Below, in pieces: positions 4,201 through 43,443 of a stretch of DNA of 64,000 bases. Made by a program: the position numbers and the translations under genes. Numbering within the stretch: the stretch's first letter is position 1; every line of letters begins with the position of its first letter. Under the pieces are notes generated by a model. It was given only the letters and a program-made list of their open reading frames with translations. It was not told the origin of the DNA and did not search any database. Origin of the DNA: Gilvimarinus sp. 2_MG-2023 (GTDB taxonomy: Bacteria > Pseudomonadota > Gammaproteobacteria > Pseudomonadales > Cellvibrionaceae); assembly GCF_030547685.1 (NCBI RefSeq), contig NZ_JAUOQM010000048.1, forward strand, positions 186,001 through 250,000. The letters are read 5' to 3'.

Positions 4201-7328
<3,128 letters not shown>

Positions 7329-7361
7329 AGCAAGTCCAGCTACCTTTTTACCGTAATGTTG

Positions 7362-10300
7362 TTAAATGGCGGCCAGCTCGGCCGCCTCGTCTACGTCGAC
7401 GGTTACTAAGCGCGATACACCGGGTTCGTGCATAGTAACCCCCATCAACTGATGCGCCATTTCCATCGCAATTTTGTTGTGGGTAATATAAATAAATTGT
7501 ACGTGCTCAGACATTTCTTCCACCATGCGAGCGTAACGGCCCACGTTGGCGTCATCCAGCGGCGCGTCAACTTCATCCAGCATACAGAAAGGCGCTGGGT
7601 TGAGTCTGAAAATGGAAAATACCAGAGCGATGGCCGTCAGTGCTTTTTCACCACCGGAGAGCAAATGGATGGTGCTGTTGCGCTTGCCCGGTGGGCGCGC
7701 CATGATGGCGATACCGGTGTCGAGTAAATCTTCGCCGGTAAGCTCTAGGTAAGCGTGGCCACCGCCAAACACCTTGGGAAACAGTTCTTGCAAGCCGCTG
7801 TTGACCTTGTCGAAGGTTTCTTTAAAGCGGGTGCGGGTTTCGCGGTCAATTTTCTTAATCGCGTTTTCCAGTGTTTCCAGCGCTTCTAGCAGATCTTCAT
7901 TCTGAGCATCCAAATAGTTTTTGCGCTCAGACTCAGACTTGTACTCATCGATGGCTGCCAAGTTAATGGCGCCTAGGCGAGATATCCGGTTTGCCAACTG
8001 TTCTAGCTCGGCCTCTAGCGGTTGCATCTCAGCGTCTTCAGCTAAGTTTTCTAGCAGGCTGTCCAGATCGAAATTATCTTCAGCCAGTTGATCGGCCAAG
8101 GTTTTGCGCTGTACTTCGAACGTTTGTGCGGCCAAGCGCTCTTGCTCTAGATGCGAGCGAACGGCTTGCACTTCTTGCTCGGCGCGGTTGCGCGATTGTT
8201 CTGCTTCACGCAGGTCGTGCTCTACAGTTTCTAGGGCGCGGCGTGATTCGGTTAACTCTTCTTCGACGGCAATGCGTTTGGCCAGCGCGGCTTCCAACTC
8301 TAGTTGATTGTCTTCGGCCGGGTCGCGATTTTCGCTCATGGATTCGGCGAGTTGTTCGCGCCGCTCTGCCAGTGTTTCTGTTTGCTCTTCCATGCGCGCA
8401 ATATTGAGCTTGATGCTGTCAATTTGCGTATTGAGTGACGCGGCGCGCATTTGCAGCTCGTGCGCTTTGTCTTTGTCGTGACGAGCTTTTTGGCGAGCGG
8501 TGTCGAGTTTGGTACGATACTCGTCGCGACGAGCCAGTAAGGTTTCGCGCTCCTCAGTATCGGCTTCCATCGCTTCGATGGCATCACTTAAAATGGTGCG
8601 CGCTTCGGCGAGTTGTTCTGCCTCTTGCTCCATTTGTTCGCGTGCGTCGGCAATGTCGCCTTGTAAACGCGATTTGCGCTGGCCCAGTTGCTCGGCTTTT
8701 ACTTGAGTGGCGCTAATGTTTGAGCGCAACTCACTGTGCCGTGCGTTTAGGCTGTCTTGTTCACGTCGATGTTGTTCGCGTGCCGCCTCAGTCGATTTAA
8801 TGGCCTCGCGGTTTTGTTCGAGCTGCTCGGCAAGCGACTCTACTTTTTGTTCGGTTTGAGCGATCTGCTCGGCCAGAGTTTCTAGCTCTTGTTTGCGGGC
8901 GATAACACCGGCGCTGGCGTCAATTTCTCGGGCTACTTTTATCCAGTGAGCGCTGAGCCATAGGCCGTCTTTGGTGACGACCGATTCGCCGCTGCTCAGT
9001 GTGGCACGAATGCCCAGTGCATCGGTTAAATTGTCGGCAATATAAATACCCGCCAACAATCCGTCGGTATCCCAATTGGCGTCAACTTGGCTGGCCAGTG
9101 TTTCGGCTTTGGTGTGGCTGGGGCTGTCGGTACGGACTTTGGTGTCCAGCAGAATTAACTCGCCCTGCTCTAACCCCTCTAGGGTATTGACCACGCCATC
9201 TGCGCCCTCGACACAAACCGCTTGCAGGGTGTTGCCCAGAACGGTTTCCAGGGCTGTGTCCCAGCCATTGCGAGCGCTAACCTGCTCGGCTAGGCGCGGA
9301 GCATCCACCAACGCATGGGTTTCTAACCATTCGGTAATGGTTTTGTTCTTTTCGCCTAAAGCGGCCTGTTGCAACGCTTCGAGGGAGGCGTGACGACCAC
9401 GCATGCTCTGTAAATCACTGCGCTGGCTGTCGAGCTGGTCGGTGAGCTGTTTGTTTTCGTTGCGCGTCTGCTCAAGGCGATCGAGAAACCCCTCGCCTTT
9501 TTCGCGGGTGCTTTCCAGTTCAAGCTCAAGTTCGGCCATGGCTTCGCGCAACAGTTCGACTTCTTCACCGGACTCTTGGTCTTCACCTAGCGCGCGTTTC
9601 TCTTCATCGAGCTTTTCAATGCGCACTAGCAATCGCTGCTGAACTTGCTCAAGGTGCTGAATGCGCGATTGTTGGACTTCGGCCCGCTGGCGTGGTTCTG
9701 CCGCGCGCTGGTTGAATTGGTCCCAATCGTTTTGCCAGTTCTGCATAAGCTCTTCAGCCTCATGCAGCAGGTCACCTGAGGATTCTTCGGCCGCTTCGAT
9801 TAATTCCAGCTCGGGTTCTATCTCAAGCAGTTCTGCCTGCCAGAGTTGCTCGCGATCGCGGTCGGTTTCGAGCCGGTCTTTAACTTCGCGAGATTCCTGA
9901 TCGGTGCGCTCAAGATCGGTTTGCAGTTGGCGGTTGCGCTCTTCGGCGTGTTTGATGCTCTGCTCAACCCGGGCAATATCGGCGCCGATGGCATAAAAGC
10001 GCCCCTGCACCTCATTGAATTTGTCGCCTAAATCGGTGTACTGAGCTCGGTATTTTTCAATTTGAGTGTCTTTGTTGACCTGGTCGGTCACAAAAGACTC
10101 CATTTTGATTTCGAGATCGCGAATGCCCTGCTGCTTACCCTGAGCCTGCTGATCAAGATTGCGGTACTTAAGCGCTTGCACTTGTGCCTTGAGGCTGCGC
10201 TCTTGCTTTTTAAATTCGGTATATTTTTCCGCCGCTTGGGCCTGACGCTCCAGGCGAGACAGCTGGCGTTCAAGCTCATCGCGGATATCGGTTAGGCGCT

Positions 10301-13115: not shown

Positions 13116-13191
13116 GGGTGGTTAGCTCAGCTGGGAGAGCATCGCCCTTACAAGGCGAGGGTCACAGGTTCGATCCCTGTACCACCCACCA
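13116..13191 (+). tRNA. tRNA-Val (anticodon TAC)
   Basis: A 76-nt tRNA with acceptor arms GGGTGGT and ACCACCC, discriminator A and an encoded CCA. The anticodon loop CTTACAA gives TAC (Val), and the T arm has GGTTCGATCC. It is followed after 12 nt by tRNA-Asp. By eye its sequence is identical to the second copy at 43368-43443. Confidence 0.97.
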
Positions 13192-13203
13192 ATTCAGGAT
13201 TGC

Positions 13204-13280
13204 GGACCGGTAGTTCAGCTGGTTAGAATGCCGGCCTGTCACGCCGGAGGTCGCGGGTTCGAGTCCCGTCCGGTCCGCCA
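13204..13280 (+). tRNA. tRNA-Asp (anticodon GTC)
   Basis: A 77-nt tRNA with acceptor arms GGACCGG and CCGGTCC, discriminator G, an encoded CCA and anticodon loop CTGTCAC (GTC, Asp). It is closely similar to E. coli tRNA-Asp and is cotranscribed with tRNA-Val. It is identical by eye to the copy at 43280-43356. Confidence 0.97.
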
Positions 13281-13286
13281 CTATTT

Positions 13287-13317
13287 AAAAAGGCTCCACT
13301 TTGTGGGGCCTTTTTTT
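13287..13317 (+). terminator. intrinsic terminator of the plus-strand tRNA operon
   Basis: AAAAAGGCTCCAC and GTGGGGCCTTTTT pair around a TTT loop and run into seven T residues. The same hairpin follows the second tRNA operon (43243-43273). Confidence 0.9.
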
Positions 13318-13488
13318 ATGCCCGTTGAAATTGTCTATGTTGGCAGACGAGACGATGAACCTTAGGCGGCGTTCAATTTAATCGTACGGGGCAATATGCC
13401 CACCGTGCAGAGTCTCAGTAAGCTACCCCACTCGTTCAGTTTTAAACGGCTCCTGCTAAGCCCGTAAAGCGAATGGAACACTAGTGCC
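13318..13488. other. spacer between the tRNA operon and ccmG
   Basis: No gene seen. The first 100 bp can be aligned by eye with the sequence after the second tRNA operon's terminator. Both share TTTTTTATGCC, then ATGTTG, then a GACGATGAACC block and a GGCGTTC/CGGTGTTC block. The perfect hairpins of the second locus are not preserved here. It looks like a diverged copy of the same duplicated flank. Confidence 0.5.
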
Positions 13489-42598: not shown

Positions 42599-42623
42599 AT
42601 AATGGCCGTTTTCAGGCCATTAT
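42599..42623 (-). terminator. stem-loop at the end of the 27-codon mini-gene
   Basis: ATAATGGCC and GGCCATTAT form a perfect 9-bp stem around a 7-base loop. The stem includes the stop codon of the mini-gene. The downstream T-tract on the minus strand is weak (ATTATTGTGTCC), so this may be a terminator or an mRNA-stabilising hairpin. Confidence 0.55.
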
Positions 42624-42703
42624 ACTTCGGCATAATCCTCACAGTACTCATCATCAAGGTCATCGAACCCTGTATCGAGTAATTCTTCTAAATAATCTTG
42701 CAT
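42620..42703 (-). CDS. 27-residue highly acidic mini-protein
   Basis: A short frame outside any larger gene. Its ATG is preceded by a near-consensus ribosome binding site (TTAGGAG, 7-8 bp upstream). It encodes 27 residues, starting MQDYLEELL and ending CEDYAEV, with 12 Asp/Glu, four Tyr/Phe pairs of spacing, one Cys and no Lys or Arg. The stop codon sits in a perfect 9-bp hairpin. This combination is what a real small gene looks like. I do not know its family. It lies between the coiled-coil gene (same strand, downstream) and the tRNA-flanking hairpin array. Confidence 0.6.
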   Translation of the reverse strand: MQDYLEELLDTGFDDLDDEYCEDYAEV

Positions 42704-42952
42704 TTGTAAATCTCCTAATTATTAACAATCGACTATTAGAGCTAAAACAGCGCGTTTTAGTTCCATCAACGTTAAAATCGCATAAAAATGTGACAATTAC
42801 GTGATAAAAACGATCCTTAATATGCTTATATGCGCCAACCTGCTCGCAGAGAATAGACGTATCGTCAATAAGTAGTAGATGAGGATTTTGGGGGGGTATG
42901 TCAGTGCCTGGCTGATCAACTCAAATGTTATCGCTCCGCCCGAGCGGCATTA

Positions 42953-42982
42953 CCTTTTTAAATAGTGGCGGATCGGACGGGA
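42953..42982 (-). repeat. 30-nt direct repeat: partial copy of the tRNA-Asp 3' end and downstream spacer
   Basis: This segment repeats 43267-43296 with one mismatch (T for C at the eighth tRNA base). It covers the last 17 bases of tRNA-Asp including CCA and the first part of the terminator region. Both copies have the same orientation, 314 bp apart. Duplicated tRNA 3' ends are the usual mark of integrase-mediated insertion, but a decayed tandem tRNA copy would look the same. Confidence 0.75.
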
Positions 42983-43050
42983 AACATGGCCGCCATAACC
43001 GCTATAGATGGTGGGAATGCCGAATATGCAGGAGCCATTTTTCGGCCCGT

Positions 43051-43203
43051 GGCGGCCACCCTAGTGGCAACGCCTTCGCGCTGTGCAAAATGGCTATCCT
43101 GCCATTAGTTACGGCCATCTTCCTGATGGCCGCCCTTCGGGCAGCGCGTTACGCTGTGCCAATTCGCTCCCGACGAATTGGTCGAACACCGCTTCGCGGG
43201 TTC
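43051..43203. repeat. array of seven consecutive short hairpins
   Basis: Seven stem-loops lie almost end to end: 43051-43074 (GGCG-GCCAC/GTGGC-CGCC), 43089-43106 (AATGGC/GCCATT), 43113-43131 (GGCCATC/GATGGCC), 43132-43142 (GCCC/GGGC), 43142-43156 (CAGCG/CGCTG), 43159-43181 (CCAATTCG/CGAATTGG) and 43184-43203 (GAAC-CCGC/GCGG-GTTC with one bulge). Stems are 4-9 bp, loops 3-7. Spacing and sequence differ, so it is neither a CRISPR nor a simple tandem repeat. It sits just past the tRNA-Asp terminator. Confidence 0.75.
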
Positions 43204-43242
43204 ATCGTCCCGTCAAGTCAACATGTGCCTTTTTAACAGGCA

Positions 43243-43273
43243 TAAAAAAGGCCCCACAAAGTGGAGCCTTTTT
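43243..43273 (-). terminator. intrinsic terminator of the minus-strand tRNA operon
   Basis: The same hairpin as at 13287-13317 (AAAAAGGCTCCAC / GTGGGGCC), followed on the minus strand by a run of T. Confidence 0.88.
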
Positions 43274-43279
43274 AAATAG

Positions 43280-43356
43280 TGGCGGACCGGACGGGACTCG
43301 AACCCGCGACCTCCGGCGTGACAGGCCGGCATTCTAACCAGCTGAACTACCGGTCC
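43280..43356 (-). tRNA. tRNA-Asp (anticodon GTC), second copy
   Basis: A 77-nt tRNA identical by eye to the copy at 13204-13280, with acceptor GGACCGG/CCGGTCC, encoded CCA and anticodon GTC. It follows tRNA-Val by 11 nt; that spacer differs from the first locus. Confidence 0.97.
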
Positions 43357-43367
43357 GCAATGCTGAT

Positions 43368-43443
43368 TGGTGGGTGGTACAGGGATCGAACCTGTGACCC
43401 TCGCCTTGTAAGGGCGATGCTCTCCCAGCTGAGCTAACCACCC
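43368..43443 (-). tRNA. tRNA-Val (anticodon TAC), second copy
   Basis: A 76-nt tRNA identical by eye to 13116-13191, with encoded CCA and anticodon loop CTTACAA. It is first in the minus-strand tRNA operon. Confidence 0.97.

Follow-up and report, generated by a model that had tools for sequence, protein, structure and literature searches.

The row of short hairpins behind a Val-Asp tRNA operon in the 64,000-nucleotide stretch of DNA from Gilvimarinus sp. 2_MG-2023 analysed here (the window) is, on a modest balance of probability, an RtT-like element, most likely a non-autonomous palindromic DNA module with the architecture of the repeat in the E. coli tyrT operon (rttR, RtT RNA). Behind tRNA-Asp, the T-arm and acceptor end of this tRNA are repeated, first inverted and then in direct orientation, and four-hairpin cassettes sit in the T-loop of the copy. 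Under the proposed mechanism, the module would be copied into hairpin loops, namely the T-arms of tRNA and tmRNA ends, other repeats and its own hairpin H1, and each copying event would add a second 3' end while the tRNA itself stays functional. The module may be read through from the tRNA. The parts on which this reading is built are the following:

43368..43443, minus strand: tRNA-Val(tac), first gene of the operon (ARAGORN, Rfam)
43280..43356, minus strand: tRNA-Asp(gtc), donor of the copied 3' end (ARAGORN, Rfam)
43244..43273, minus strand: intrinsic-terminator-like inverted repeat directly 3' of tRNA-Asp (arms 43245-43257/43261-43273, 92 %, 3 nt between)
43183..43214, minus strand: T'T hairpin GAACCCGC..GCGGTGTTC, an inverted plus a direct T-arm copy, 5' side of the element
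43110..43182, minus strand: cassette B, four hairpins (repeats; match to cassette model R1, E 2.3e-11)
43050..43109, minus strand: cassette A, second tandem cassette, diverged (R1 match 43038-43109, E 0.0019)
42985..43049, plus strand: nested two-hairpin sister module with a GCAGGAG loop, within H1 of cassette A (by eye)
42953..42984, minus strand: direct copy of the tRNA-Asp 3' end with terminator tail, 3' boundary of the element (30-nt direct repeat)
42931..42947, no strand assigned: eighth hairpin, at the place expected for a second terminator copy (by eye)
13260..13400, plus strand: second tRNA-Asp end, terminator and eroded relic of the element (GACGAGACGATGAACC left), 88 % identity over 13260-13361

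In the direction of the tRNAs, tRNA-Asp is followed by the terminator, the T'T hairpin, cassette B, cassette A with its nested module and the copy of the tRNA 3' end; the whole feature spans 42953 to 43214. The inverted T-arm copy within the T'T hairpin has a 10-nt run in common with the end of tRNA-Asp, and the direct repeat (42953-42982 vs 43267-43296) covers 30 nt at 97 % identity. Cassette B is made up of hairpins H4 (43159-43181), H3 (43142-43156, arms 43142-43146/43152-43156 by eye), H2 (43132-43142, arms 43132-43135/43139-43142 by eye) and H1 (43112-43132). An exact 27-nt stretch of cassette A (43080-43106) is found again elsewhere in the same genome (G000:C6:23207-23233). The GGA of the nested module lies on the strand opposite to that of the cassette, and a module nested in H1 as in the window was also seen in loci L005, L010 and L031. 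A scan for terminator patterns did not flag the inverted repeat at 43244..43273, while the eighth hairpin also counts as a terminator-like match on the plus strand, where 1 was found and 1.2 were expected. With Rfam at the gathering cut-off, the tRNAs alone were matched in the window.

The window holds two Val-Asp tRNA operons, mutually inverted and 30 kb apart (13116-13400 vs 43200-43443), the second of which carries the eroded relic only; the relic gave no R1 match at E<=1. A pair of such operons, about 29 kb apart, is also present in the related genomes G003 and G004. At 42620-42703 on the minus strand there is a tiny acidic open frame of 27 codons (MQDYLEELLDTGFDD.., by eye), followed by a AATGGCCTGAAAACGGCCATT hairpin, and frames resembling it lie near the same type of locus in G005 (L006) and G048 (L014).

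The hairpins themselves are real. When 42983-43220 was compared with dinucleotide shuffles, the z-scores were -5.7 for folding as DNA (plus strand), -4.7 for RNA of the plus strand and -3.1 for RNA of the minus strand, and in each of the three folds 0 of 200 shuffles folded as well. An earlier note, made from the sequence alone, had described seven consecutive stem-loops that differ in sequence and an eighth beyond the tRNA fragment. Their positions stand: the perfect 8-bp hairpin at 43159-43181 is exact in the repeat search (43159-43166/43174-43181), the one given 7 bp at 43113-43131 is exact over 8 bp (43112-43119/43125-43132), one pair beyond what was claimed, and the eighth, placed at 42932-42946, is found at 42931-42947. 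The seven are not unrelated to one another: a four-hairpin cassette is present twice, together with a nested module of two hairpins. The note had missed that a single cassette is repeated here and that the repeats lie within a copied tRNA end. A CRISPR or simple tandem repeat is rejected, as the note had also held, since the repeat search lists no near-identical repeats with spacers in the region.

Two of the checks that the note had proposed, for paired changes among relatives and for further genomic copies, came out positive. A query with the window region gave matches in 24 of 97 related genomes. A tRNA or tmRNA gene (Asp, Val, Ser, Pro, Lys, Met, Glu, Gly or tmRNA) was found in 20 of the 31 loci scanned, and two further loci are at 5S rRNA (by eye); in L013 and L032 (both G035) a module of the nested type adjoins 5S rRNA genes (by eye). 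When 19 hand-picked cassettes were aligned over 93 columns (A1), 90.0 % of the cells were paired under the four-hairpin structure, against 29-45 % in slid controls, and two-sided changes occurred in 16 of the 26 pairs, a number reached by 0 of 500 shuffles. Chance palindromes are thereby rejected, on the folding as well as on the paired changes. Paired changes were also present in a further alignment, A2, which was fitted to the model, so that its pair counts lean toward the structure.

Two models of the cassette alone, R1 and R2 (the latter from 134 matches in 86 loci), and a full-length model, R3, show how widely the element is distributed; the genome tallies rest on rough E-values. R1 found 10 matches at E<=1 in the window's own genome, five of them at E<=1e-4, and at the latter threshold matches in at least 110 of the 144 genomes sampled from the family. 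R2, at E<=1e-6, matched at least 129 of 370 genomes of the class sample and at least 72 of 397 of the phylum sample, 33 of these outside the class. R3 gave full-length or partial matches, some over the cassette part only and not all beside tRNAs, in at least 176 of 370 genomes of Gammaproteobacteria at E<=1e-5. Outside the window's family, the cassette was found behind tRNA-Ser(gga) in Pseudoxanthomonas dokdonensis, two Pseudidiomarina species and a gammaproteobacterial MAG. A blastn search with one Pseudidiomarina cassette against plasmids, phages and E. coli gave no match, although diverged copies could escape it. In open-licence publications, no description of an element of this kind from any organism but E. 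coli was found, and a literature search by sequence strings gave a single unrelated match. Tandem arrays of similar cassettes were seen in L076 (four, 7161-7452) and L049 (three, 1352-1574). In L003, L086, L096, L120 and L174, sister modules carry CATGGATG-like and GCAGGAGC hairpins, which suggests a superfamily with GGA loops in common.

The cassettes are tied to the 3' side of tRNA genes. In G003 and G004 together, 25 of 42 matches have a tRNA no more than 1 kb away, and 23 of the 25 lie downstream of it; in the window's own genome 9 of 10 are as close to a tRNA, with the tenth ending in a tmRNA-like 3' end; some of these matches overlap on opposite strands or in tandem, so that they are not separate places, and two were placed by coordinates only. 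About 2 % would be expected near a tRNA by chance (40 tRNA matches, about 4 Mb). That all ten matches of the own genome are at tRNA or tmRNA-like ends could alternatively reflect vertical inheritance with local duplication. Of 125 distinct sites, 77 have a tRNA or tmRNA gene no more than 500 nt away, and 74 of these lie downstream of it. Flanks resembling a T-loop (TTC..NATCC, a motif chosen after inspection of the data) were present at 32 of the 77 near sites vs 4 of the 48 far ones; the near sites lacking them include tandem neighbours and Gly, Leu and Phe sites (by eye). The end copies are specific for the tRNA concerned: over 31 loci, the mean run shared 3' of the cassette was 12.9 nt with the end of the own tRNA vs 5.5 with other tRNA types, and for the inverted copy on the 5' side the values were 7.9 and 5.5. 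In the class sample, a tRNA or tmRNA gene lies no more than 500 nt from 9 of 29 R2 loci (7 of the 9 downstream), and in five of the remaining loci, which were read individually (L104, L106, L125, L127 and L129), the cassettes are inside other palindromic repeats. The mosaics of L104, L106 and L129 contain AAAGAAAAGTNACCAAAAGAAAGG-like motifs, apparently of another hairpin-rich repeat. Of the best 30 R3 loci, 27 have a tRNA no more than 500 nt away and 26 lie downstream of it, a rate biased upward because the training set of R3 was mostly tRNA-near and the best scores were taken. Altogether the element was found behind Asp, Ser, Ala, Pro, Lys, Arg, Met, Phe, Leu, Gly, Gln and Tyr tRNA genes and behind tmRNA genes.

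To our knowledge, RtT RNA has so far been known just as a peculiarity of the tyrT operon in E. coli. In E. coli K-12, rttR is annotated as an ncRNA behind tyrT/tyrV, and the tyrT region contains four repeat copies with their parts ordered as in the window element: tRNA, spacer, the GATGAGAA..T'T hairpin, a hairpin cassette with CCCGAAGGG, and GAGTAATCC with the tRNA 3' end. In the window, the T'T hairpin (43183-43214) is likewise followed by hairpins that include CCCGAAGGG (43132-43142), and the element lies directly behind a tRNA and ends in a copy of that tRNA's 3' end, as an RtT repeat does. The window differs in having tRNA-Asp, two unlike cassettes and the nested module; the GGA loops of H1 and H4 also belong to the window-type cassette, whereas the corresponding loops of E. 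coli rttR lack GGA (by eye).

R3 was built from 30 elements with no E. coli row; in 49 kb of E. coli K-12 it matched, up to E 10, the four tyrT repeats and nothing else (22.6-31.8 bits, E 5.1e-8 to 2.9e-5), with 6.4 bits at most over the tRNA-Tyr genes. On the window its E-value was 1.3e-21, and the bare tRNA-Asp scored 8.9 bits only. R3 is not fully independent of RtT, because its rows include L132, which has a sub-threshold RtT match and was put in once that match was known, and L018, which lies beside an RF00391 match and is the best R3 match of L194. The cassette by itself appears to resemble the E. coli copies weakly: with R2, three tyrT copies rank first to third of 20 matches in the 49 kb (17.3-17.7 bits, weak E-values of 0.031-0.038), the fourth tying with an unrelated place at E 0.3, and with R1 three copies again rank first to third at weak E-values of 0.32-0.67.

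The Rfam model of RtT RNA, RF00391, had no match in 42900-43300 of the window up to E 5, nor one above cut-off in the window's own genome. Of 145 relatives, 11 gave a match to it above cut-off, including two from the window's genus (G002 and G007); ten such loci that were fetched are at tRNA-Lys (3, including those of G002 and G007), tRNA-Tyr (4) and tRNA-Ser (3). In a permissive Rfam scan, RF00391 covered the element of the relative L132 with 40.5 bits (gathering cut-off 45, E 1.7e-4), a match that by itself is unconvincing since the same scan gave a sub-threshold Thr_leader match on L068 with a lower E-value (1.9e-5). Sub-threshold matches to sX4, a proteobacterial sRNA with a cut-off of 70 bits, were seen over tRNA-Ser and the start of the element in L083 (1310-1462, 42.5 bits) and L132 (1311-1484, 45.0 bits); sX4 is possibly in part such a tRNA-linked element locus. 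As R3 finds the tyrT repeats and RF00391 misses the window, the term RtT-like is supported and membership in RF00391 as modelled is not. The window element is a real and ordered structure, best taken as a variant of RtT that has diverged and is widely distributed.

That the element acts as a structured RNA, made by read-through of the first terminator, cut into an RtT-like small RNA and regulatory in some way other than by binding CsrA, is rather unlikely, even if it is the most viable of the alternatives. It is favoured by the annotation of rttR as an ncRNA, by the strong paired changes in the stems, by the cassette having the orientation of the tRNA at 64 of the 77 near sites and by a second terminator copy after the element in L039, L074, L080 and L083. 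Against it, RttR is a row listed as unchanged (97 +/- 9 %) in the table of an E. coli screen (PMC4606813), and its values range from 0 to 0.47 in one expression table (PMC10651509). The orientation, moreover, is mostly reversed at Gly, Leu and Phe genes, which account for 12 of the 13 inverted near sites.

The mismatches in the stems also speak against it. Over 124 distinct copies, 36 G-U and 30 A-C oppositions were counted on the model strand in 22 of the 26 pairs (2614 cells), against 28 G-U and 0 A-C in 600 cells of the acceptor and T stems of 50 distinct tRNAs, which were drawn from the fetched sequences and the window (Fisher P 1.9e-6). Four pairs were omitted from that cassette count; the loop-closing pair alone had 21 G-U and 0 A-C on the model strand, and the G-U excess seen over all 26 pairs arises from it (60 G-U and 35 A-C on the model strand, 35 G-U and 60 A-C on the GGA strand). 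The 26-pair count thus speaks against RNA constraint on the GGA strand, yet it does not give full symmetry. Even the subset in the direction of the tRNA has 15 G-U and 13 A-C on the GGA strand, although neutral decay of dispersed copies could mimic this, so that single copies may yet function as RNA; the inverted subset has 3 and 8, and the remainder 12 and 15. As mismatches are about strand-symmetric, the stems look kept or copied as DNA. The pattern agrees with DNA-level palindromes in later decay, and not with selection of a tRNA-like kind acting on the GGA strand. Compensatory changes may arise when quasi-palindromes are copied, or through selection acting as the module spreads. Of the readings offered in the earlier note, a structured RNA made by tRNA read-through is one of the two closest, having an annotated E. 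coli counterpart; selection on the stems as RNA of one strand is the part that found no support.

A more specific RNA role is still less probable, namely that of a CsrA/Rsm sponge, in which the GGA loops of H1 and H4 would bind CsrA on the tRNA strand and read-through would titrate CsrA in step with growth. Among the 124 distinct copies, GGA is present on the tRNA strand in the H1 loop of 116, in the H4 loop of 118 and in both of 112, and H1 reads CANGGANG in 92, a sequence which we take to be close to the Rsm/CsrA consensus. The phylum sample has a csrA match in 69 of 72 genomes with a cassette vs 130 of 325 without one (a comparison made by hand). This association tracks phylogeny, however, and G189, G602 and G623 carry a cassette and lack a csrA match. 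The canonical CsrA site is described as having GGA in a loop, and the E. coli sRNAs rrA, rrB and rrF, which lie between dual rRNA terminators, as read-through products that bind CsrA in vitro (PMC8144298). With the latter, which are sRNAs of Enterobacterales rRNA operons, the element would have in common a read-through position between two terminators behind a stable-RNA operon, as well as the GGA loops. Apart from the csrA distribution, the absence of GGA from these loops of E. coli rttR, the opposite strand of the GGA in the nested module and the lack of constraint on the GGA strand, in the counts by subset and over all 26 pairs, argue against a sponge. Matches to RsmY in Rfam were weak and below the gathering cut-off (E 0.11 in L049, 0.027 in L068), and no known sponge RNA family is listed by Rfam for the window.

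Very unlikely is a repeat of the REP/BIME type mobilised by a RAYT (Y1 HUH) transposase. The element is palindromic, dispersed, mosaic and intergenic like REP, BIME and REPIN sequences, rttR appears among the REP-containing entries tabulated by a REP survey of 2025 (PMC12306157), and a Y1_Tnp match was obtained in 16 of 19 cassette-rich genomes. It differs from them in its four-hairpin unit, often placed in a T-loop, and in that no link to a Y1_Tnp gene was found: the cassette-rich genomes G031, G603 and G800 have no Y1_Tnp match, and no cassette lies within 1.5 kb of 30 fetched loci of the 63 Y1_Tnp matches. The REP-like palindromic mosaic, the other of the two closest readings of the earlier note, is borne out by the mosaic nesting and by the REP listing of rttR; a link to RAYT genes was not found in these searches. 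A remnant of a tyrosine-integrase island, with the copied tRNA end as att site and the hairpins as leftovers, is just as improbable: a tRNA 3' end copy does bound the element, but the order of inverted T-arm, T, cassette and acceptor end recurs at several tRNAs and tmRNA across the class, and an all-against-all comparison of 1896 neighbouring open frames, judged by eye, showed no recurrent gene beside the cassettes, only spurious frames overlapping the elements, and host genes that belong to a common tRNA locus.

For the palindromic DNA module preferred here, neither the Y1_Tnp matches nor the comparison of neighbouring frames yielded a mobilising gene, and neither an empty site nor movement was seen in the loci at hand. 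The reading of the earlier note as a transposase substrate may still apply, with no known enzyme to go with it. The module would have moved by being copied into hairpin loops. In G553, five copies with identical ends are found in two or more different flank settings, near flanks being common to three of the five, and in L127 the cassette is inside the stem-loop of another repeat (by eye). Longer flanking repeats are common to most copies in G537 and G603, so that there a larger repeat may be what multiplied. In the window's genome, the module may be transcribed and would be mostly selfish or neutral in character. Among known systems, Rickettsia palindromic elements may come close to it, as palindromic units inserted in genes, RNA genes included.

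A broader view is put forward more tentatively, as a possibility that we do not consider the probable one. Non-autonomous mobile DNA hairpins may occur throughout the Proteobacteria, inserting in hairpin loops, chiefly the T-loops of tRNAs and tmRNA, and rebuilding the tRNA end; E. coli rtT would then be a stranded lineage, and no known type of transposase would explain such insertion. If the homology holds, RtT RNA is one branch of an element that is found behind many types of tRNA. The element is also a test case in which RNA structure and DNA palindromes can be told apart by the strand bias of mismatches, and it may represent a mobile element that targets hairpin loops without a known enzyme.
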